A stretch of 64,000 nucleotides of DNA from Tetraselmis striata (lineage: Eukaryota; Chlorophyta; Chlorodendrophyceae; Chlorodendrales; Chlorodendraceae). Shown piece by piece: positions 361 through 16,562 of this stretch; within the stretch, counting starts at the first letter, position 1, and each line of letters begins with the position of its first letter. The stretch spans positions 1-64,000 of the forward strand of contig VCJN01000503.1 in NCBI GenBank assembly GCA_006384855.1, read 5' to 3'. Under the pieces are notes generated by a model that was given only the letters and a program-made list of their open reading frames with translations, did not search any database and had not been told where the DNA came from. The position numbers and the translations under genes were made by a program.

Positions 361-625
361 GGCTGCATTTCATTTTCGGCCGTAACCGCAAATAATCGTA
401 CGGGTACCCGGTACGAATTTACGGTTGCGGCTCGCGAGTACAGTACTCGTCGTAAACGCTTAACGCGGAGTTGTATTATTGAGCCGTAACCGTAAACTGG
501 CGGATTTGCGGCTCGAGGATTTGCGGATGATTGGCCTCGCTGGTCGCAAGTATCGCAATATTTACGACCGCCCTAAATATGGCTCACTGAGCCGTAAATC
601 GAAGTAATACTTTATGCATTATATA

Positions 626-1107
626 TGTCGGAGGGGATTGTCGAAGTGATGGCTGAGTGGCACTGTCACTGATGGGGGGAGAGTCGGCGAGAGTCGGCGT
701 GCACGCGTCGAATCACGTCGAGTGCCAGCAAGCAAGGTGCGAGCTGGAAAGGCAAAGGGTTGCTATGAGCCGTGGGCGATGGACGATAGGTAGTCGCTGT
801 CGCCGTGGTGATGGCTGAGTGGCACTGTCACGAGAGAGAAAGGGTGAGTCGGAATATTTCTGGAAAAGCAGTTGACTGAATTACAAGGAGCCGAGGCTAG
901 CAATTTATACCAGCCGACTAGGTGTCAATTAGAACGGACACCTCTCCGTCTAAGAAGGCCAACTGGCAAAGATGCCTAGGTGCCATGCTTTGGTGCCGTA
1001 CTGCTGCCATAAGGTCCAAATTAGGCACAGGTACGGCAGCCAGAAAAATGCGGATTTCACAGAGAGAAAAAGCGGATTCAGGGTACCGGGGTACCCTGGG
1101 TCCAACA
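626..1107 (-). repeat. copia 3' LTR
   Basis: This copy matches 12382-12860. It ends in a GGTACC-rich block (about 1081-1100) where the other copy instead duplicates a 22-bp A-rich unit. ATATA at 621-625 is the target duplication. Confidence 0.93.
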
Positions 1108-1120
1108 CCCCTCCTCATCC
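1108..1120 (-). other. copia polypurine tract
   Basis: On the minus strand the sequence GGATGAGGAGGGG directly abuts the 3' LTR start (TGTTGG). This is the expected position and composition for the plus-strand primer of reverse transcription. Confidence 0.75.
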
Positions 1121-2753
1121 TGTGGAATCCCGCGGGCGCAAGACTGATGGCGGCAGAGGCGCAACACAGGGCTCCTCGGATGACCCCATCAGGAAAGCGC
1201 GGAAACGAAGAAAGGTAGTCAGCGGCAGCGCCTTAGTGAAGAAATCGGCGAGCTGGTCTGCGGTAGGCGTGTAGTGCATGTCGATGACGCCATCTTGGCA
1301 GAGTTGTGCTGCATACTGAAACTTGAGGTCAATGTGGCGTTGCGCGCCTGTAATCATACCATGTTTCACCTGAACGATGCACGCTTGATTGTCCTCGCAT
1401 ACCCGCACAGGGTCAGTGGTGGGGTGGTGGAGCTGGCGCAGAAGAACACGAATAAACGCTAGACATTTGCAGGCCATGCAGAGCGCCACGAACTCCGCCT
1501 CGGCAGTAGACATGGCCACGCTCTACTGAACGTGCGCGCGGTAGGCGACTGGGGTGCCATGCACCATGGCAAGATAGCCGGTAGTGGAGTGGCGTTTGGG
1601 CACGAAGGTCGCCCAGTCAGCGTCCACAAAAAAGGAAGTCAGGTGCCTCGTTGTCCAGTTGCTTCCGGAAAATGAGGCCATGGTTGGGGGTGCCCTTGAG
1701 GTAGCGCAGCACTGATACGGCGATCTGCCAGTGACGCTCGGTGGGGGACGCCATGTAGGCGCACAGGCGGCCGACCACGAACGCAATGTCCGGGCGTGAT
1801 GCCACAGCCAGCAGCCAGATAAGGCTACCAACAAGATTGGGATAGGGAAAGAGTTTGGTGTCGAGGGGCGTGCCTGTAAGGTCATGAAAATCGGTATCCG
1901 GTGTGCAGGGTAGGCGGCGAGGCGCGCACGCCGCCATGTTGAAGGTAGTCAAGATGTCGTTGATGTACTTCTCCTGATGGAGGTGGAGCACGCCTCCCGG
2001 CTTGCGATCAATGGCCATGCCAAGAAGCCAGGTGCATAGGCCGTCAGTAGTTGCATCAAATGTAGAGAAGAGAGAAGTCTGAAAACGCTCCCGGATGTCG
2101 GACGACGGGGAGGCAGCCAGCATGATGTCATCGACGTAGACGCATAGGATGGCCAGCAGCGATTTATCGACTGCGAGCAGCGTCCATACGCCTGGATCGC
2201 ACTCGGAGCTGACGAAGCCGAAGTCACGGAGAAAATAAGAAAAGCGCAGAAACCATGCCTTGGGTGCCTGTGGCAGGCCATAGAGTGCCTTAACGAGTTT
2301 CCAAGCCTAATCCTTGCGGCCGTAGCCGGGGGGGGGGGGGGGGGGTAGACGTAGACATCTTCATCGAGGCTAGCGTTGAGGAAAGCACAGGTGACGTCGA
2401 ACTGGTACAGCTCCCAGTCAAGTTGAACTGCGAGAGCAATAGTGGTGCGCAAGGCGATGAAGCTGACGACTGGGGCATAGGTCTTAGTGTCATCATAGTT
2501 CTCGCCGGCAGTAAGTTGATCGCCGCGGACAACCACTCTGGCCTTGCGCTTGATGAGGTTGCCATCCTTGTCTTGTTTCTCCGCAAAGGCCCACGCCGTC
2601 TGTATGATGATTGCTAATGGGTTGTCACGGCGAAGGTCAGGAATGCTGATCCAAACAAAGGTCTCCATCTTGGTGATAGAGGCGATCTCTCGGTCCATGG
2701 ACTGTTTCCAGTCATCGGGGTGATTGCTGGAGATGGCCTCCTTGTAGTTGCGC
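1115..2753 (-). pseudogene. copia reverse transcriptase and RNase H
   Basis: Copia RT (RVT_2 type) begins at the gypsy junction with the expected D-W-K-x-S-M-D-x-E-I segment. It continues through V-R-G-D-Q and the A-F-L-N-A block to Y-V-D-D-I-M at about 2120, and RNase H (S-T-A-E-A-E-F, E-D-N-Q, H-I-D-L-K-F, D-F-F-T-K) occupies 1519-1120. RT starts in the same frame that integrase would have once the gypsy element is removed. The frame is then broken by a C homopolymer (2330-2346, poly-G on plus) inside the palm region, by an in-frame TAG near 2308 and by a further shift near 1625. Function is well established for the family; this copy is defective. Confidence 0.9.
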
Positions 2754-3097
2754 TGTTAGCGTTGCGCCTAGCGACTACCCTAATACCACCTGCGACGTTT
2801 TATGGCCAAGTAATCTGTTGTACTGCTGATATTTCAGCACGCGTATTATTTACTGGTACGGCCACAACCAGGCGCCAGTAATATTCCTTGTAACATAAAT
2901 ACAGTACGCGCTACAACTCCTAAAACATCAGGATAGCGCTACTAGCTGCCTGTCCGCGGTGCCCAGTTGGACCGCTATAGGATAAATATCCAATGCCACC
3001 AGCATGTTGTAAGAGATTACATTCTGCAACCAACTTAATTCGCCAAAAGCTACGAGTAAGAGCCCTGTTTCACTAAGTACTGCAACGAGTACTTACA
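2754..3097 (+). repeat. gypsy 5' LTR
   Basis: It begins TGTTAGC and ends TTACA, and matches 7302-7649 almost base for base. A possible primer binding site begins at 3099 with TGG, but the matching tRNA was not identified. Confidence 0.95.
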
Positions 3098-3251
3098 CTG
3101 GTTTCGGCTTCCTGTTACGATCCATCTCCACCTGCCGACCCACCGCGACCTGCTATCGCAAGCACGACGATACATTCGCGATTTCGCTGGTCCTGCCGAC
3201 CCTTGGTAACGATTCTGTACCCTTCAACCTTTATCCGAGTCGCGTGTCGCC

Positions 3252-4032
3252 ATGGCATCGTACCGGAGCGCCCGTCAAGCCGGTTACCCTCCCGGTGGTC
3301 CACCCGCCGAGCAGTCTATGCGTCAAATTGTCGAGAAGAAGATGCTGGAAGCCCGCGTCGTGGCGCCAACCCAAAACATTTCTCACAAGCTCGCCGACGT
3401 TCATGACTTCCCAGCAGTCAAGGCCTTTCTGGAGAACTACGCGCGACACGGCAAGACCCGTCGGAGACTACGCGCGTGACATCGGCGCCAAGCCGAGCGA
3501 CCCCAAGATAGCTACTTGGTCGACTTGCAGCGCAAGCTACAAGCTGCATTTGCTTTGCTGCATGAACCTTTCGCTGTGCCTTGTTGCATAATGAACCTTT
3601 CGTTGTGCTGAGTACTTGCAAGTGCAACGTATTTTGCAGACGATTCCCAAGCACGAAAGAGCCGAGGTGGAAAGATGGCTAACCGCGCCAACGAGACTGT
3701 CTCGACTGAGAGTAAGTCCATGCAAAATACATGCAGTGGCAGCAAATAAGCTAGCCAAGCAAGTCGACAAGATCGACTTACACAAAAACAAATGACGGTG
3801 TTGAGCAAAATGCCAATTTGTGCCTCTCAATGTAATTGAGACAATCGACATTGACATGTCGCCGAGTCCATGCAAAGAAATTGCATGTGAGTCCATGCAA
3901 ACATGTATGCACTGCCAAACTGCCTGCCCAGCCCTTGCATGAGATCGAGGTTACAGATGTCGATATGGTTGAGCATTGCGCGCCCGCGGCACCGAACCCC
4001 TCCGACTCACAACCTGAGCATGAAGCTCATGG
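3252..4032 (+). pseudogene. gypsy gag remnant
   Basis: An ATG at 3252 opens a 75-codon ORF with the composition of a gag N-terminus (basic, Q/P-rich, then a helical A-F-L-E-N segment). Further short ORFs follow in other frames up to the protease. No zinc knuckle is readable. The segment also carries repeated GTCCATGCAAA-type units (about 3717-3905). I read it as a degraded or partly deleted gag; only position supports the assignment. Confidence 0.5.
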
Positions 4033-5071
4033 GTGTTCCTGTGCTCATTCACACCTCGTTGCCGACATCGAGGACGAGACAGGGTGCAGAGAAAATGTCG
4101 ACAAAATGTCAAAGACAAAAAGATGCATGCTAAACTGCATGCCAAACTGACTATCATGCAAAAGAGATCTCGAGTGCGCAGAATGCGTACCAAAAACAAT
4201 AATCAAAAGAATGACACTGAAATTGACAAATATGCAAAACCAAATGCATGTCCAACTGACTCTGTTGTGTTTGACGAAGCAGAATTCAAGAGACTGAATT
4301 ATGCCTATGGTCCAGTCACTTTTGATGCTTGTTCCTCAGCATATGATGCTGTCTGTTCAGAATGGATTATTGCAGTGCTGAAAAAGCCATTTCTGCAACA
4401 AGAAATCACAGCCAAGGCAATTAATGACATCGTTACCACTGAGGAACTCAAAACCATGTTGGCTGAACAGCAAGGTAAGGAATATAAACCAAAAGCCACA
4501 CAGTCCCACCAGTCACGTATGATGACAGAAAAATGTTTTGTTACCAGCAAGTCTGATCATGACTTATTGCTATTACACCCAACATGTGCTGAATTTAATA
4601 TAACACCTTCCGTACTGGTTGACAGCGGTGCTACTTTGAACTTTGCCAGCACCAAGTATGTCAAAGAAAATAAAATACCAACTACACCACTTCAAAACAA
4701 AGTAAGAGTTATTCTTGCTGATGGTAGAATGGTTCTCGCTTCACAAAAAATCACCCCTGAATTAAATATCAACAATTACACAGTACCCATTCTTCACAGT
4801 CACACCGTTACAAAATAATTTCAATCTGATTTTAGAGATGCAATTCCTGAAACAACACAACCCACATGTTGATTGGGAATCTGGTCTGATGACATTTTCC
4901 ACAGGACTAAAAGTCAAATGCCAAACAGAGCCCCGCCAGGCTAATGTCAGAATGGTTCATGCTAATGCCATGGCCAGAGTAATTGCCAAGCATGACCCTG
5001 ACACAGTTTATTTCTGCGACATTGTTAAACAATACAATGCCACCAAAGAGAGTGATGAGCTCCGATATTGA
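4033..5071 (+). pseudogene. gypsy protease and linker to RT
   Basis: The 4033-4818 ORF contains the retropepsin active site as V-D-S-G-A (about 4618-4632) followed by A-S-T-K-Y-V, with a downstream I-L-A-D-G-R flap-like segment. After a stop at 4816-4818 the next ORF (4838-5071) resumes with F-L-K-Q-H-N-P-x-x-D-W, the conserved protease-RT connector of gypsy elements. The polyprotein is therefore frameshifted here and again before the RT ORF at 4983. Confidence 0.85.
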
Positions 5072-7181
5072 TGATGAGATAAATACAATTGACACTGACC
5101 AGTGTGCAGCTTATACAACTCAGATCAGAGACTTATTGCGAAAGCATAAACCAATATGCTCTCCACTTGACAACCTTCCACAATTACGCCCTGGTCTTGA
5201 TCATGAGATCCCTCTTGTTCATGATGCTCAAGTTCCTGCAGGAAAAATATACAGATTATCACCTGCAGAATTAGAGGATCTAAGAACACAACTGAATTCT
5301 TTTCTTGAGAAACAGTTTATACAGGAGTCCTTCTCTCCATATACAGCTCCTGTCCTCTTCGCCCGCAAGGCCAATGGTGGTCTGCGCATGTGCATTGACT
5401 ACCGTCAATTGAAGAAATATACCAAAAAGGAAGGACTAGGCAGACGCCATGCCCTATGGTTACATGAAATTTCACCATACATGGCAGTCATCCCACAGAC
5501 TAATGAACCTATGTTGCAGATATTATATCGCAAAGGCGCTGATAATGAGGCTGATGCTCTCTCTCGCCGCCCTGACTTGCATTATGCATTGACTGAATAT
5601 GAAAACCAGTTGGTCGAAGCTGACCTTGAACAAATGCAGGACTATTTGTCAGCAATGTCCGCCTTGCAGATTGACAGCAAGCTGATAATCAAGATCAAAG
5701 CTGCCTACATCACTGATGTTGCCTACAGTCATGGACGCGCCCCTAACGGTGTGCGACAGGATGAGACTGATGGTCTCTACTACATGGCAGATAAGGTCTG
5801 TATACCCAATGATTCTGAACTGAGAAAACTCATCATTGAGGAGTATCATGTTGGTAATGGACACCCCAACCATACCCGCACTCTTGCCAACATACTGCGT
5901 ATGTTTTGGTGGTCGCGCATGAATACCACAGTCAAGCATTACTGCAAACCATGTGATACTTGCGTTAGAATCAAAGCAGCTACCACCAAGCCTCATGGTT
6001 CTTTATTTCCCTTGCCAAAGGCAACCAAGCCTTGGGAGATAATCTCTATGGATTTTATAACCAACTTACCTGAGGTGGATGGCTACGATGCTATTGCTAC
6101 GTTTGTTGATACATTCACCAAACAGTCACATTTTGTGCCATGCAATATTAAGATTGATGCGACACAGTTGGCCAGATTATATTTGGACAATATTTACAGA
6201 CACCATGGTCTCAGCAGATGTATCATCTCTGACAGAGATCCCAGGTTCACTTCAGTGTTCTGGAAATCATTGTTTACAGCAGCTCTGCAAACTAAGCTAA
6301 ATATTTCCAGCGCGTATCACCCGCAAACTGACGGTCAAACTGAACGCAACCACAGAACTATTGAGCAAATATTACGTGCGTTTGTTCACAAGCAACATGA
6401 CTCTTGGTTAAGTCATTTGGCTCTTGCTGAATTTTCTTACAATAATTCAGTCCATTCAGCAACACATTATGCCCCTTTTGAGGCAATTTATGGCATGATG
6501 CCACTGACACCACCTGATATGATTGCTACTGCGAACCAAGATGCACGCCAAACAGTTGCAAATATTCAAGATATTCACATGCTGATTACTGAGCAACTGA
6601 AGCTTGCTGATGAATATCAAAAGGTGTATGCCGACCGCAAAACCAGCCATGTTGAGTTCGCAGAAGCAGACAAAGTCTGGCTCTCAACGGAGCACTTGCT
6701 TATACGCAACCAGCCGGCGCGCAAATTCCGACAGCGCTACATCGGCCCCTACCCAGTCACGGCCAGGATCTCCAGCCAGGCGTTTCGTCTGCGCCTGCCA
6801 CCAACGTTCGACTGCCACAATGTGTTTCACATAAGTCGACTGCGTCAGTGCGTCAACCCAGATACACAGCCCGATACAATACCGTCCAGTGTGGAGACCC
6901 CTGTCGACGAGTTCGTCGTTGAACGCGTGCTCGACTTCTCTATCGAGCGCCGCGAGGATTCGTTCAAGCGAGGACTCTGCCTCGTCTGTCTGGTGCGGTG
7001 GCTGAACTACGACTCAAGTCACGACAGCTGGGAGCCATACAGCGCGCTGCGCCGTGTCGAGGCGCTACACGATTTCGCGAGGGCGAGCCGACATCTGCAA
7101 GACACCCTACGCTCAAAGGAATACGCCAACCTGCGAGCGCGCCGCCCGTCGCGTTTTCCAGAGTCCATCCCGGAGCGTTGA
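4983..7181 (+). CDS. gypsy pol: RT N-terminus, RNase H tail, integrase, chromodomain (internally deleted)
   Basis: This is one 732-codon ORF. Residues ~40-145 are the RT fingers (L-R-K-H-K-P-I through C-I-D-Y-R-Q-L). The sequence then jumps within a few residues to the RNase H tail (K-G-A-D-N-E-A-D-A-L-S-R-R), so the whole RT palm with its catalytic aspartates and most of RNase H are gone. Integrase is intact: an H-H-C-C zinc finger (G-H-P-N-H...C-x-x-C), then the D-D-E core, visible as M-D-F, S-D-R-D-P-R-F and Y-H-P-Q-T-D-G-Q-T-E-R. The C-terminus has a GPY-like segment and a chromodomain (V-E-R-V-L...C-L-V-R-W-L-N-Y...S-W-E-P). The deletion is clean and in frame. Confidence 0.93.
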   Translation: MPSMTLTQFISATLLNNTMPPKRVMSSDIDDEINTIDTDQCAAYTTQIRDLLRKHKPICSPLDNLPQLRPGLDHEIPLVHDAQVPAGKIYRLSPAELEDLRTQLNSFLEKQFIQESFSPYTAPVLFARKANGGLRMCIDYRQLKKYTKKEGLGRRHALWLHEISPYMAVIPQTNEPMLQILYRKGADNEADALSRRPDLHYALTEYENQLVEADLEQMQDYLSAMSALQIDSKLIIKIKAAYITDVAYSHGRAPNGVRQDETDGLYYMADKVCIPNDSELRKLIIEEYHVGNGHPNHTRTLANILRMFWWSRMNTTVKHYCKPCDTCVRIKAATTKPHGSLFPLPKATKPWEIISMDFITNLPEVDGYDAIATFVDTFTKQSHFVPCNIKIDATQLARLYLDNIYRHHGLSRCIISDRDPRFTSVFWKSLFTAALQTKLNISSAYHPQTDGQTERNHRTIEQILRAFVHKQHDSWLSHLALAEFSYNNSVHSATHYAPFEAIYGMMPLTPPDMIATANQDARQTVANIQDIHMLITEQLKLADEYQKVYADRKTSHVEFAEADKVWLSTEHLLIRNQPARKFRQRYIGPYPVTARISSQAFRLRLPPTFDCHNVFHISRLRQCVNPDTQPDTIPSSVETPVDEFVVERVLDFSIERREDSFKRGLCLVCLVRWLNYDSSHDSWEPYSALRRVEALHDFARASRHLQDTLRSKEYANLRARRPSRFPESIPER

Positions 7182-7287
7182 CACCTACTGCTGCTGTTGC
7201 TGTTGCTATATCACGCTTCCACCGCCAACCGACATCTGGGCCAGGCCTTCGGCGACGCGAAAAGACACTTTCCAGTTCGTCATTTAT

Positions 7288-7301
7288 CAGAAGGGTGGGA
7301 A
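7288..7301 (+). other. gypsy polypurine tract
   Basis: The purine-rich run AGAAGGGTGGGAA lies immediately 5' of the 3' LTR, where plus-strand synthesis is primed. Confidence 0.7.
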
Positions 7302-7649
7302 TGTTAGGGTTGCGCCTAGCGACTACCCTAATACCACCTGCGACGTTTTATGGCCAAGTAATCTTACTGTTGTACTGCTGATATTTCAGCACGCGTAATA
7401 TTTACTGGTACGGCCACAACCAGGCGCCAGTAATATTCCTTGTAACATAAATACAGTACGCGCTACAACTCCTAAAACATCAGGATAGCGCTACTAGCTG
7501 CCTGTCCGCGGTGCCCAGTTGGACCGCTATAGGATAAATATCCAATGCCACCAGCATGTTGTAAGAGATTACATTCTGCAACCAACTTAATTCGCCAAAA
7601 GCTACGAGTAAGAGCCATGTTTCACTAAGTACTGCAACGAGTACTTACA
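7302..7649 (+). repeat. gypsy 3' LTR
   Basis: It matches 2754-3097 and is 4 bp longer because of a TTAC insertion near its middle. TGCGC follows at 7650-7654. Confidence 0.95.
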
Positions 7650-9459
7650 TGCGCGGCGCCTTGGACACGCGGACAATGGGTGCTGGCAGGGCGAGGGCGG
7701 CCATCTGCGCCGGGTAGGGGCGCACAACCTCCGCGATGGCGGATGCTACCAGCTTGGGGTGGTAGTCGCTAAGGTCGACATAAGGAGAAGATATGTGCGC
7801 TGATCCAGTGGAGTGAGGAGTTGGCAGTGCTGTGGCGTCGCCCTCCTGATGACGCGGAAGATACGTCCCTTCTGGCTGCGGAGGTGGGGGCCCCTCCTGC
7901 GCGGAGGCAAGCGCCGCTGACGGCGGCATGGGTGGCGGCATGGGAGGTGGCGCGTGGGGCCCCTCCTGCTGGTCCAAGGGTTGCGACTCATCCATCAGGT
8001 GGTCATCGTCGGGGAGCTGGAAGACTGGCATAGAGAGTGCCGGTGTGCTGGAGAAGGGTCGTGTCACCTCATCAAAGATGACATCGCGTGAAACCGTTTC
8101 GCGCCTGGTAGCCGGGTTGTATATGCGGTAGCCGGCGGAGTCCTCATGGTGTCCAACGTAGATGCCCGGCCAGGATTTAGGTGTCATTTTTCCCTTGGCT
8201 GCCCGCATAGTCACAGGTATGTTGACCCATGCCACACAGCCGAAAACATGCAGGTTGGCGAGGTCGGGTTTGCGACCGGTCATCAGCGTGTAAGGTATGG
8301 CGTTGACGGACGAGCTCCACTGGCGGTTGCAGAGATAGACGGCGTGAAGATACGCCCAGTCCCAGAAGGTGCGGTCGAGGCCGGCGTGGAGAAGCATGGC
8401 TTGGGCACACTCACCGATAGTGCGGAAAGAGCGCTCCGCCAGGCCTGCTTGATGATGAGAGTGGGATGCGGTAAACTCCAGCGCGATGTTGAGGTATGCA
8501 CATGCTTGACGAAACGGAGAGCCGGTATAAACCGCGCTGCGATCGGCACGTATGCGTTGAACGGTGTGACCCATGCCGAGAACCGCCGCATGAAGTTGAT
8601 GGACGGCGCGGACGGCCTCGTCCTTGGTGCGCATGGGGATCGCTACCTTTACTCAAGTGTAGGAATCCACCGCGCCGAAAACATGCTGCGTGCCAGTGAC
8701 CGACGGACAAGGTCCCTTCCAGTCGTCGATGACCACGAGCTTGTATGGTGCCTCCGCGCGTGGGGAGGGCTGACGGTTGACTGACTGCTAGTGGGATTTG
8801 GCCTGAATGCACGCTGGGCATATGGCCTCCGGTGCAGATCCGAGTTTCGGGATGCCGATGGCATGTTGTTGGGTGAGCTCCATGTGGCGCGCGCAGCGAT
8901 GACCAAGTCGAAGATGCCACAGGGAGTAGGAGGCCGTTGGAGATGGCAGTGCCATGACCCCATGAGACGGATCGCGGATGGGAAGGAGCTTGATGCCGTA
9001 CATGCCTGTGGTGCCGGGGTAGGGCTGAAGGTGGATGACTGCGCCATCTGGGGTTATCATGCTGTTGAGGAGGCGGCTGAAGTAGAAAGAGTAGCCCTGC
9101 TTGCTGAGTTGATGGGTGCTGAGGAGGCGGCTGATGTTGGTGAGACCGACACTGGAGGTGATCTCAGGAGTATGGTAACAGGCTCGTGCCACAATGGTAT
9201 GTGGCCTGCCTGTGATGTCTAGTGTTGGCGCCAGCGTGGTGCCGATGCCGACTGCCGGTTGCCCGAAACCGCCCACCAGAAATTGCTCCGCCGCAGGAAT
9301 GTCCATGTAGTAGATGTAGTCGGTGCGGTGGGCGTTGACGTGAGAGGATGCTCCCGAGTCGATGAGCACCCATGCTTCGCCATCGCTGGTGATGAGGGTG
9401 CCGTATGACGTGTGGCAGACAATGATGACGGTTGGGGAAGGGGCGGCGCCCGAGACAGC
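7650..9459 (-). pseudogene. copia protease and integrase
   Basis: Reading on the minus strand, the aspartic protease site L-I-D-S-G-A-S-S-H is at about 9340-9375. It is followed by the GAG-pre-integrase H-x-x-x-H-x(n)-C-x-x-C zinc finger (L-W-H-L-R-L-G-H...C-P-A-C) and the integrase core with Q-R-I-R-A-D-R-S-A-V-Y and A-G-L-A-E-R-S-F-R-T. A copia-type C-terminal region (V-F-G-C-V-A-W, G-I-Y-V-G-H) ends at the gypsy TSD. Everything is in one frame, shared with the upstream methyltransferase, but TAG at 8788-8790 and TGA near 8653 interrupt it. Proline-rich sequence before RT is typical of copia. Confidence 0.9.
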
Positions 9460-10410
9460 CTTGATGTAGTTGCGCATGACGTTGAGATCGATGACCCCGC
9501 CGAGAAGTTTGCGCAGTGTCGCCTCAGAAAGGTGAGATGTGGGCAGATCATCCAAGGTGAAGCCCATGGCGCGAGCGCGTAGAGCTGCAGGGGGTTCGCA
9601 CCATCTGCCGTTGTCTGCCCAGGACCAGGGGCCATCATGTTCGTAGACCATGCCAGTGCCCGACTGACCGTTGGTTTGCATGCGAAAAGCGTATGAGCCG
9701 GGGCGGGCGACGAACCTCGGAAAGTGGTCAGTTGTCACCACTGGAGTAAAGTGGGGGAATTCGGATATACAGAGGTCTCACGCGCAGGGGGCGGGGTCGG
9801 TGAGCTCGATGGCGTTGATGTTGTTGATGTAGTCATGAACGTCGGTTTGCGAAGCGATATTGGTCCACAGGAGGGTGTCGCGGTGAGCCGCCGAGCCGCA
9901 GGCGGTCGCACGCATGATGTTGCCGGTGCCAAGTGAGGAGAGTATCTCAGGGAAGTCCAGCGCGCCTGGAACATTCTCCACAATGTAGCGCACCGGTGTG
10001 GGCTGTGTAGTCAGGTAGAAACGGATGAAACTGATGACGGAAGCAAAGGCCCGAGAGCGATGGTCCTGCCAGCCAAGGCGTGAGCCAGCGCGCGACCATG
10101 GTTGACACGGTGGGCCTGACACGATGAGGGTGACCGGACGCAGGGTCTCCAGCTCCGCGATGGTGATGTTGTTGACGTCCATGGGGGTCCTGGCATGACA
10201 GTCCTGAAATGCTGAAGGGGGCAGGCGGTCCGGGTATTTGTCGCTGATGACATGTAGGCGATGCGTCCACATAGTACGAGCCTCGGGCGACGGGTCGGCG
10301 CCGGTGATCTTGTGGATGGTGAAGCCGTATTCTACGAGAGCCTCTACTTCAGATGCCGATGGGCCATGGCAATGCGAAAAGAGATGGTCGATGACCAGAG
10401 AGGTTGGCAG
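9460..10410 (-). pseudogene. retrotransposon-borne C5-cytosine DNA methyltransferase domain
   Basis: This domain would transfer a methyl group from S-adenosylmethionine to cytosine C5 in DNA. Reading minus, a motif I-like segment near 10400 is diverged. Motif IV is S-G-P-P-C-Q-P-W-S-R, with the catalytic Cys codon at 10105-10107; motif VI is E-N-V-P-G at about 9972-9984; a motif VIII-like A-H-R-D-x-L-L-W-x-N is at about 9870-9900. After an in-frame TGA (9778-9780) come a short target-recognition-like stretch, motif IX (L-R-A-R-A-M-G-F) and motif X (L-L-G-G-V-I-D-L-N-V-M) at about 9465-9590. Motif order and spacing match a complete single-domain enzyme broken only by the TGA. It lies between gag and protease in the pol frame. 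Subfamily (DNMT3/DRM-like or bacterial-like) is not resolved. Confidence 0.9.
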
Positions 10411-11020
10411 CGGGAGGATCGGCGCAGCGGTGAGGAGCGGTAGTGTTGGTGGCGGGTCGCCACGCAGGGCGCCTTGCTCCGCATGAAGAATGTGGGATGC
10501 CAACGCCGCCGAGGCGGGGAATGTGGGTGAAGTGAGGCATAGGGGTTGGGCTGGGGTGGGGACGGGGTGGGGACGTTGCCAATTGATGTCGAATAGGTGG
10601 ATGGGGGGATCGAGGGAGTAGGGATGGGAGTAAACGTTCCAGCGGGGGGGGGATGTCGGGGGTATCGAAGATCGGGAAGGCGTCGGGGTGAGGGCGGGAG
10701 CGGTGAACATGCCATGAGTGTGAGAACGGGGACTCGAAGTCGGCATAAGAGTCGGAGTAGGGGACGTGCCAGGGGTCATGTAAGTCATCCTCCGCGATGT
10801 CCTCGCCCTCCCCCTCCTGTGCTCCGGTGGCCGCCCCTCCTGGGGCGGTAGTGTTGCAGGTGAGCGTGATAGGCAGGCTGATGTGGTGTTGTGCTGATGG
10901 GGACACTCCCACGAACGGGTAGGCCTCCTGGTGTCCCGTCGGCCGCTGGGTGAAGGTGTCGCTGGCCTGCTGATGACCCGGGTGCTGATGTCCAGCCGGG
11001 GAGACGAAGCCGACCGGCTG
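10411..11020 (-). other. proline-rich linker between gag and methyltransferase
   Basis: The methyltransferase ORF is open upstream to 11214. About 200 codons of low-complexity P/T/S/H-rich sequence precede motif I, with no recognised domain. It overlaps the end of gag (stop at 11021) in a different frame, so expression would require a +1 frameshift or a separate start. Confidence 0.6.
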
Positions 11021-12191
11021 CTAATGACGCTGCATGCCGTCGTTGCCGCCCTGGTTTGTCCAACGCTGCTGCCGCTGGGGCCTGTCCTGATTGTTGCGGT
11101 TGTCGTTGTAGAAAGGCTGGCCTGGCGGTGCCTGATGGCGGTAGTTGTCGCGCGGGTGGTGGCCATAGTTGGTGTTGACGCGACGCTCCGCAGGCGCGCG
11201 CTGATGGCGGTCATAGCGAGGGTTGGTCATGGTGCTGGTCGGCGTGGTGTCATCTAGAATACGTAGGCCATTGGCATGGCGCCTGGCCACACACTGTTGC
11301 TGGGTATGGCCCGGACGGTCACACCGTCTGCAGACAACGCTGGGCCCGGTGGTGTGCTGCGGGTCCCTGGGGCTGTAGGAATTATTGAGGTTAGGCGGGC
11401 ACGCGCGGACGCGCTGCTGACGCTGACGCTTGCGCGCCTCCATGTTCTGTCCGGCGCTGATGATGGTCGCCAGCTTCTCGTTGACAGTGGCCGCCGAGGT
11501 GGTAGGTGGTGTCGACGATATGATCGTAGTCTGGGTGAAGGCATGGGATGAGGTAGTTGGCAGCCACATACTCGAAGGTCCACTGGCCATGTGCCTTGTT
11601 CAGCAGATTCCAGAGGTTCTGGTAGCGCCGAACATACACCTGAACCGGCTCATTCGGGAGCTGGCCCGCTGTGATCTCTTCCTCCAAGCGCTTACGCTCC
11701 TCCATGGCTGAGCCCTGGAGCTCAGTAAGAAGAGCCTTCCATGCGGTGTATCCACACTTACTGGAATCCATGCCGATGCTGTTGACGATGGCCAGTGCCA
11801 TGGGATAATGGGCTGTTACGTGGCGTAGGGCGGCCAGAAGGATCATTTGCTCCTGACGGGTGCCTTTGCCCTTGGTGGTGTCCAAGTAGCCAGCGCTGCC
11901 GAGAGCGATCTTGATGGCTTGAGCGTTGTCTCGTGTAGAGATGGTGTTGTCCCACATGGGGACGTTCTTGAGGTCGAGTGTCGGCTTCACTGCAGCTGGC
12001 TTGATATGCTGGACGACCTCGGACGAGTCATCGTCTGACGCCCCGTCCATGTTGAAGGCGTCGTCAGAACTGGTATCACCACGGAAGTCAGGAGGTGGTG
12101 GGGCGTGGCCAGGGTCGGTTTTGATCGCACTCTGCCGAGCCAGATTGGCCAGGGGGGTGTTCATCATGCCGGTGTTGATGCTGGTAGACAT
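11021..12191 (-). pseudogene. copia gag with CCHC zinc knuckle
   Basis: The probable start is the ATG at 12191-12189. The N-terminal part has the copia capsid-like helical region (M-W-D-N...A-W-K-A-L-L-T-E-L...Y-V-R-R-Y-Q-N-L-W) to about 11510. A one-base shift is then needed to enter the next frame, which carries the basic segment and the CCHC knuckle C-R-R-C-D-R-P-G-H-T-Q-Q-Q-C at about 11310-11350, ending at the stop at 11021-11023. Gag packages element RNA into virus-like particles. Both frame changes (within gag and gag to pol) are in the +1 direction. Confidence 0.85.
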
Positions 12192-12381
12192 TGCGAAGGG
12201 ATGGCGCACTTGTGCTTGAGGATGTATAACTGTAGGGGTGGGCGGGTGGGAAGAAAAACTCGTCGCACGGCGCCGTCGACCGTCGAAAGTTGTCGAGGGT
12301 CGAGATACACGCAGGTTGAAGCCTCTGGCAGGCGTCGAGCACGGGGCAAGACGTCGAACCAAAGGAGAGGGCCCAAAAACC

Positions 12382-12860
12382 TGTCGGAGGGGATTGTCGA
12401 AGTGATGGCTGAGTGGCACTGTCACTGATGGGGGGAGAGTCGGCGAGAGTCGGCGTGCACGCGTCGAATCACGTCGAGTGCCAGCAAGCAAGGTGCGAGC
12501 TGGAAAGGCAAAGGGCTGCTATGAGCCGTGGGTGATGGACGATAGGTAGTCGCTGTCGCCGTGGTGATGGCTGAGTGGCACTGTCACGAGAGAGAAAGGG
12601 TGAGTCGGAATATTTCTGGAAAAGCAGTTGACTGAATTACAAGGAGCCGAGGCTAGCAATTTATACCATCCGACTAGGTGTCAATTAGAACGGACACCTC
12701 TCCGTCTAAGAAGGCCAACTGGCAAAGATGCCTAGGTGCCATGCTTTGGTGCCGTACTGCTGCCATAAGGTCCAAATTAGGCACAGGTACGGCAGCCAGA
12801 AAAATGCGGATTTCACAGAGAGAAAAAGCGGATTTCACAGAGAGAAAAAGCGGTCCAACA
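12382..12860 (-). repeat. copia 5' LTR
   Basis: This is the upstream LTR relative to the minus-strand genes. It has a tandem duplication of a 22-bp GCGGATTTCACAGAGAGAAA-type unit near 12807-12850 that the other LTR has only once. ATATA at 12861-12865 is the target duplication. Confidence 0.93.
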
Positions 12861-13067
12861 ATATACATGTTCAGCACAATGTACATGCCGGCCGCAACGG
12901 ATCGTAGGGGCCAGGCGGCGCCCTGCTTGCTGCTCGGCCCGGCACCAGCCCGGGCGCCAAGGCATGCTAATGTTGGGCCCGTTTGAACGTTTGAACTCAC
13001 ATGACTGAGGGGGTGCGGTCAAACGTCACTGCCTTGGCTCATTATTTGCCATTCGCCCGCCCACATC

Positions 13068-16059: not shown

Positions 16060-16562
16060 AGCGAAGCGTCGATTTTTCGGCGGTGAGCTTTATTGCCGTA
16101 CGGGTACCCGTACAGTGCAGCGGATCGGGCCTATAGGTGCATGACCAAAGCGCTTATCTACTGGCATGTACTACTATAATCCACTCACCCACCCGCCCGC
16201 CCACGGTCCTTAATTACACAGCCGTCCGATTACGATCTCACGGTTGGGAGGCTATGAGTACTAGTACTCGCTATTCGCTGCTGGTAATGGAAAAAACAAC
16301 TCTGGTACTTCAAGGCGCTGGCAATGCGAACGCTCGCTGGTGGTACTGGTACTGGTACTCGCTGCTGGTACTGTTGGTACTGGAACTGGTACTCGCTACT
16401 CGCGGCTGGTAATGGAAAAAAAAACTCTGGTACTTCAAAGCGCTGGCAATGCAAACGCTCGCTGCTGGTACTTCAAAGCGCTGGCAATGCTATTCATGGA
16501 ACTGTAGGCCAGTGATATAGAGCCCGTTCTCTTAAAATTTTCTGAAAAATCGACGCATCGCT
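16060..16562. mobile_element. possible MITE/foldback with internal direct repeats
   Basis: A ~21-bp inverted repeat (AGCGAAGCGTCGATTTTTCG at left, its near-complement ending ATCGCTG at right) bounds 503 bp. Inside, a ~64-bp unit (GGTAATGGAAAAAA through CGCTGGCAATGC) occurs at about 16286 and 16407, with a partial third copy at 16471 and short GGTACT arrays. No clear target duplication was found. Confidence 0.4.

Follow-up and report, generated by a model that had tools for sequence, protein, structure and literature searches.

A DNMT3-Like Cytosine Methyltransferase Domain in a Ty1/Copia Retrotransposon Family of the Green Alga Tetraselmis striata

The window, i.e., the whole 64,000-nucleotide stretch of Tetraselmis striata DNA analyzed here (contig VCJN01000503.1), contains a Ty1/Copia retrotransposon with a C5-cytosine DNA methyltransferase (MTase) domain. 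The results below show it to be a dead copy of a recently mobile Copia family whose DNMT3-like MTase is under selection. We further suggest, with moderate confidence, that this MTase goes back to one old capture and serves as a packaged enzyme, which may methylate the element's own cDNA and be usable in trans.

Structure of the Element in the Window

The element lies on the minus strand at positions 626–12860 and has TG...CA LTRs and a 5-bp target-site duplication (TSD) (Table 1). Together with the order of protease (PR), integrase (INT), reverse transcriptase (RT) and RNase H (RH) and an RT of the RVT_2 type, these features identify it as Ty1/Copia. The original prediction of C5-MTase motifs inside an LTR- and TSD-bounded Copia element, between gag and protease, was confirmed: besides PPCQ and ENV (Table 1), AHR...WxN was found at 9888–9859, and LRARAMGF...LGGVIDLNV, assigned to motifs IX and X, within 9588–9460. 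The MTase had also been placed in the pol frame. This is true for other copies, in which the whole polyprotein is one frame, but not for the window copy with its stops and frame breaks. Along its whole length, the MTase region of the polyprotein is matched at up to 99% by gene models of T. striata (jgi Tetstr1).

Table 1. Features of the Copia element and of the gypsy element nested in it (window coordinates)
Feature	Position	Strand	Remark
Target-site duplication, element 5′ side	12861–12865		TATAT in element sense
5′ LTR (TG...CA)	12382–12860	-	compared with 3′ LTR
gag region with CCHC zinc knuckle (11332–11291)	11291–12191	-	ATG at 12191; frame broken in window copy
Linker, zinc knuckle to MTase	10411–11290	-	
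DNMT3-like C5-cytosine methyltransferase domain, 317 codons	9460–10410	-	TGA stop at 9778–9780 in window copy
Motif I, altered: LFSHCHG	10357–10398	-	
Motif IV (GPPCQPWS), catalytic cysteine codon	10105–10107	-	
Motif VI, ENV	9970–9978	-	
Protease region, outer limits approximate	9100–9459	-	IDSGASSH at 9363–9340
GAG-pre-integrase, integrase core, SH3-like domain; outer limits approximate	7655–9000	-	TAG at 8788–8790
Nested chromodomain Ty3/gypsy element	2754–7649	+	LTRs 2754–3097 and 7302–7649; TSD TGCGC (2749–2753 / 7650–7654)
Copia reverse transcriptase (RVT_2)	1949–2752	-	YVDD at 2138–2127; frame broken in window copy
RNase H region	1115–1948	-	
3′ LTR	626–1107	-	compared with 5′ LTR
Target-site duplication, element 3′ side	621–625		TATAT, as on 5′ side

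The window copy is a dead element: a stop interrupts the MTase, the gag and RT frames are broken, and the nested gypsy element separates the integrase from the RT. Apart from the TGA and TAG codons given in Table 1, a further stop was located just upstream of 8652. Its two LTRs showed 13 mismatches over 478 positions, 10 of which were outside a 453-base stretch that differs at 3 positions. The differences are mainly in the first ~25 bases (1079–1107 and 12835–12860), where a short tandem unit differs.

The LTRs of the nested gypsy element are ~98% alike, and its 732-codon ORF matched integrase zinc-binding, SH3 and chromodomain models; no RT model was matched by this ORF in the Pfam scan. Elsewhere in the window, at 16260–16472, there are two direct repeats of 88 nt each (92% alike, spacing 125).

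Copies of the Family in the Genome

Searches of the genome (224 Mb, 2903 contigs) showed the window family (A) to be a high-copy, recently mobile Ty1/Copia of T. striata with a single gag-MTase-PR-INT-RT-RH polyprotein. The MTase DNA gave 40 scored matches at 90–100%, the window included (the best 40 of 139 candidates). The MTase protein matched at least 128 stretches (125 of 519 candidates scored), which fall into four tiers: the window family A, older relatives at ~66–93% (B), ~45 places at ~60–74% ending near residue 210 (C) and three places at 41% (D).

Twenty stretches were fetched by their MTase match, and for this reason the set says nothing on how often the MTase is missing. Using exact terminal motifs, both LTR ends were recognized in 16 of the 20, and TG...CA together with a 5-bp TSD was present in all 16 as well as in the window. 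Five of these 16 LTR pairs are free of mismatches, which indicates recent movement. A single open frame, of 2162 codons in L015 and 2130 in L016, spans the full gag-MTase-PR-INT-RT-RH order; L019, L020 and L022 are open across 2037–2085 codons, the frame of L020 ending within RH. In L015 and L016, the Pfam scan found PF13976, PF00665 (29.2 bits, just under the cut-off of 32.6), PF25597 and PF07727 in this order, with a protease motif upstream. A deletion of ~320 bases at the RT-RNase H junction is common to L014, L019, L021 and L022 (4 of the 20 fetched), and the gene model P0004 seems to have the same one; these copies are perhaps a sub-lineage relying on others for RNase H.

A search with the LTR is a less biased test for absence of the MTase. 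Among the 40 LTR places scored (of 354 candidates), by our reading of the MTase matches, two flank the derivative L029, one (C640:92078) has an MTase match 9.3 kb away, and six (two on C2144 and one each on C1733, C2337, C2037 and C1689) were left unassigned. Among the places that could be assigned, the nearest to same-LTR copies without the domain, which the original prediction had named as a sign of a one-off capture, was L029 with its truncated, mutated MTase; 31 of the 40 places flank MTase-matching elements.

The MTase might be a passenger captured once or a separate insertion nested in the window copy, and the broken window copy, taken by itself, would allow this. We rejected this explanation as almost certainly wrong, since at least 40 close matches were scored, further copies are open with the MTase inside one polyprotein frame, and the domain occupies the same position in other families.

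The Methyltransferase Domain

PF00145 was matched at 39.4 bits by the window piece, at 36.8 bits by two open copies and at 40.3 bits in a further scan (cut-off 22). The catalytic Cys, ENV and the motif VIII Arg are invariant across nine aligned MTases. Among the 20 A copies counted, all retain the catalytic Cys and Glu, one having EIV in place of ENV. Motif I, the glycine-rich AdoMet motif, is altered: it reads LFSPCHG in 19 of these 20, the remaining one being the window copy (LFSHCHG), and FFGLCCG in D. F, G, P0013 and P0014–P0017 have versions that deviate less from the canonical motif.

By sequence profile and predicted fold, the domain is closest to DNMT3. In the profile ranking, DNMT3A reached 61.8 bits and the tRNA enzyme DNMT2 39.6 bits; the VIA-align list consists of 50 rows, all of them C5-MTases, with DNMT3 taking the top 34 places. 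The tree placement proposed in the original prediction was obtained in part: with support of 88/87, the tree separates retrotransposon MTases and DNMT3A, its single DNMT3 row, from the viral and prokaryotic rows; it has no rows for DRM, DNMT1 or DNMT5.

A viral or bacterial origin of the MTase was also considered. One scan of viral_contigs and one of genome_contigs yielded 23 and 25 loci, respectively, whose best segments have 25–56% identity, mostly around motifs IV–VIII. Twelve of these loci (10 different) were long enough for the tree; they fell outside the group of retrotransposon MTases and DNMT3A (88/87), and this origin was rejected.

Selection and Mutational Footprint

The pairwise omega of the MTase was 0.26 among 20 A copies (the window, 15 of the 20 fetched and 4 more; L017, L021, L026, L027 and L028 were left out of the codon counts as frameshifted). 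Between A and 13 B copies, it was 0.26–0.36 for seven of them and 0.40–0.67 for the other six, among which are the most decayed. In 19 aligned copies, with L012 excluded as incomplete, MTase variants present in at least two copies had an N:S of 3:10 against 67.2:27.6 expected (p 0.0005, with only 13 such variants), and private variants had 49:34 (shared versus private, Fisher p 0.019). Shared variants in INT (4:11), PR (2:12) and RH (3:10) resemble those in the MTase, whereas RT (8:6), gag (7:6) and the linker (15:15) are without such a deficit, so the pattern is not uniform along the polyprotein. Judged by these codon comparisons, the MTase is kept by purifying selection in a way similar to integrase and RNase H.

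Among private transitions, no CpG-specific excess of C-to-T changes was seen: the rates per 1000 site-copies were 4.5 in CG, 5.0 in CHG, 3.4 in CHH and 3.8 at A/T, and transversions vary across these contexts in like manner. For CpG, the element part of the window has an observed/expected ratio of 0.92, compared with 0.83 elsewhere in the window.

These data bear on two other roles of the enzyme. It is improbable, in our opinion, that the substrate of the MTase is RNA, either the genomic RNA or the primer tRNA, instead of cDNA. Polyprotein enzymes encounter genomic RNA earlier than cDNA, and the lack of a CpG footprint would agree with such a target. RNA was also raised as a target of the SymbioLINE DNMTs by de Mendoza et al. 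(2018, PMC5890265). The profile ranking of DNMT3A over DNMT2 argues against it. Even less probable is that the MTase marks insertions for host silencing, as a self-limiting strategy from which the host would also profit. A slowing effect benefiting the host has been proposed for retrotransposon DNMTs (PMC5890265), and decayed copies are many, but no deamination footprint was seen, and the five mismatch-free LTR pairs speak for recent movement.

A Non-Autonomous Derivative

The derivative L029 (G000:C427:322500-327700) has ~4.8 kb between its LTRs, which differ from each other by one gap and no mismatch and are 97.8% identical to the LTR of the window copy. Its single 1235-codon frame contains gag and parts of the rest; the protease is missing, as are most of the integrase and the final third of the MTase. 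Compared with A, omega was 0.21 in gag, 0.56 in the linker and 0.54 in the MTase. In 21 C-type domains (L029, fetched with its LTRs, and 20 rows that are MTase pieces), the motif VI Glu is lost and the motif III Asp is changed to Asn in all 21, the catalytic Cys is lost in 14, and omega within C is 0.70. There are ~45 L029-like MTase pieces in the genome.

The derivative thus depends on its gag and not on an MTase of its own, as expected if the latter is supplied in trans or dispensable. Since its MTase lost catalytic residues while its gag is still constrained, the enzyme is dispensable in cis. It is worth noting that the derivative lost these residues yet moved recently; the enzyme would therefore behave like RT or integrase, being supplied in trans or not needed by every packaged genome.

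These losses also bear on the idea that the MTase of family A is non-catalytic now and works as a nucleic-acid-binding or assembly module. This could explain why both A and D have a changed glycine loop in motif I, and ordinary Copias do without the domain. We nevertheless regard the idea as unlikely: the catalytic Cys and Glu persist in every A copy counted, in contrast to the decayed C-type domains, and the selection on the MTase resembles that on INT and RH.

Other MTase-Bearing Families and the Number of Captures

Three further Copia families of the genome (D, F and G) hold an MTase upstream of the protease. The MTase of D (L030) is 41% identical to that of A, and 18 places match it at 96–100% over the whole domain. 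Those of F (L072, a 2483-codon frame) and G (L074) are 33–37% identical to D and belong to a tier of ~50 places. For two of these (C2193 and C2465), the fetched sequence includes both MTase and pol and identifies the element as Copia. In L073, a third fetched stretch, which has a G-type pol, the open frame covers just the beginning of the MTase. The 2514-aa Copia polyprotein P0013, from an ENA contig, has its MTase between the CCHC knuckle and the protease. This CCHC-MTase-protease order is common to P0013 and families A, F and G. In the D copy that was fetched, the protease follows the MTase, and gag is upstream in other frames.

Copia family E of the same genome (L071, 1561 codons) has no MTase and is common (gene-model cluster P0053, 103 members). 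Among the best 120 of 662 RT relatives, PF00145 was found in three, all Tetraselmis models of or near the window family; its absence from the others is weak evidence, because gene models, which may be incomplete, make up many of these rows.

Similar MTases were observed outside Copia. P0012 and P0018, two Gypsy-type polyproteins, carry an MTase of this kind. In P0014–P0017 (ENA contigs), a DNMT3-like MTase lies beside a PCIF1-type Pfam domain, so that two methyltransferase-type domains are possibly present in one element; two of the four also have a PHD finger. P0014 additionally has RVT_1 and RNase H and looks LINE-like, and the models P0015–P0017 are without RT.

In the MTase tree, the five Copia MTases (A, D, F, G and P0013) form one group (87/93, and 88/90 with more rows; below 95), which splits into A+D and F+G+P0013. 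Both subgroups are also present in the RT tree (6 of 38 rows dropped: five with over-long pieces and P0009, which is partial) but stand apart, with family E and others in between; forcing the five together was rejected with RT alone (AU p 0.009). The whole-pol tree puts the five on one side of a branch supported at 100/98, together with six Copias lacking the MTase, and forcing them together is borderline there (p 0.051). Both A and D sit on long branches.

With a shared position in the polyprotein, a single MTase group and a single pol group, the simplest reading is that the domain was captured once, long ago, within a Copia clade and was later lost several times. Since RT rejects a single clade and whole pol is borderline, two captures or a transfer between elements are possible.

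Proposed Role of the Enzyme

That several related elements kept the enzyme suggests that it helps the element to copy itself. The original prediction had put forward self-methylation, to hide cDNA from host defences or to self-limit, or target choice as putative uses. We propose the following pathway. The MTase would be made within the Gag-Pol polyprotein and would enter the virus-like particle along with protease, integrase and RT. There, it may methylate the double-stranded cDNA of the element before or at integration, and it could be supplied in trans or not be needed by every packaged genome. Methylation of cDNA is proposed because the MTase adjoins the protease, is selected like INT and RH, decays in the derivative and is related to DNMT3, and because SymbioDIRS enzymes methylate CG in yeast (PMC5890265). 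It is weakened by the lack of a CpG deamination footprint, by the degenerate motif I in A and D, and by the many Copias without an MTase.

A wider version is conceivable, although we consider it doubtful. The ancestor of a Copia clade would have captured a DNMT3-type MTase once and turned it into a standing replication enzyme, packaged in the particle, usable in trans and methylating cDNA, and, in Tetraselmis, such elements may account for most or all cellular DNMT3-type genes. A similar suggestion, that retrotransposons hold most or all DNMT3-type genes, was made for Symbiodinium (PMC5890265).

Comparison with Known Systems

According to de Mendoza et al. (2018, PMC5890265), retrotransposon DNMTs are known from DIRS, LINE and Gypsy elements, and captures in dinoflagellates and a charophyte, as mentioned in the original prediction, are indeed described there. 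In the window family, a DNMT lies in the coding frame of a multi-copy element and, judging from the codon comparisons between copies, is under purifying selection, so the family would count as a DNMT-encoding retrotransposon. In searches of open-access literature, we found no description of a DNMT-bearing Copia, nor of a chlorophyte with several such Copia families and an enzyme-losing derivative, in line with the original prediction that a chlorophyte Copia with the order gag-MTase-PR-INT-RT-RH may be undescribed. A 2025 paper (PMC12344493) names 'LTR Copia' in passing, citing the 2018 work, in which the LTR element is Gypsy; this wording is probably a slip. According to PMC6338049, in which the word 'copia' is absent, Gypsy and DIRS elements encoding DAM or DCM occur in green algae, among other hosts.

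According to PMC5890265, KnitGypsy-Dnmt3 of Klebsormidium nitens is likewise an LTR element with a Dnmt3-related DNMT in Pol, several copies and purifying selection (Ka/Ks < 0.2); its activity was not seen in yeast, a result called inconclusive. It differs in being a Gypsy element of a streptophyte with a repeat structure described as DIRS-like. The Gypsy pol order (RT before INT, with RVT_1) is also not that of the window family, in which RVT_2 follows INT. SymbioDIRS-Dnmt3 of Symbiodinium resembles the window family in its Dnmt3-type DNMT in Pol, and de novo methylation of CG by two tested copies was observed in yeast, but it has a tyrosine recombinase and no DDE integrase (PMC5890265). In the scan of the window-family polyprotein, the phage-integrase family was not found; integrase-type domains and the 5-bp TSD were present instead. 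SymbioLINE-Dnmt of Symbiodinium is also a DNMT in a high-copy retrotransposon, differing as a LINE with an orphan DNMT type encoded in ORF1 and a reported CG depletion (PMC5890265).

Also comparable are the Copia polyprotein P0013 and the Gypsy polyprotein P0012 with its PHD finger, whose MTases are homologous to that of the window family (34–35% identical). Family E shares the genome with it and lies on the same side of the supported pol branch as the MTase Copias, without having the MTase. With recent copies, several MTase families, a related family without MTase, and a derivative with a decayed MTase and a constrained gag, the system is unusually testable. The contrast with the derivative permits asking if the enzyme works in cis or in trans, and what the element gains or loses by it, a question left open by the 2018 paper (PMC5890265). 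As the charophyte element in that paper is Gypsy, the Copia example extends the known range, and the Copia superfamily and a chlorophyte join the short list of retrotransposons carrying C5 DNA methyltransferases.
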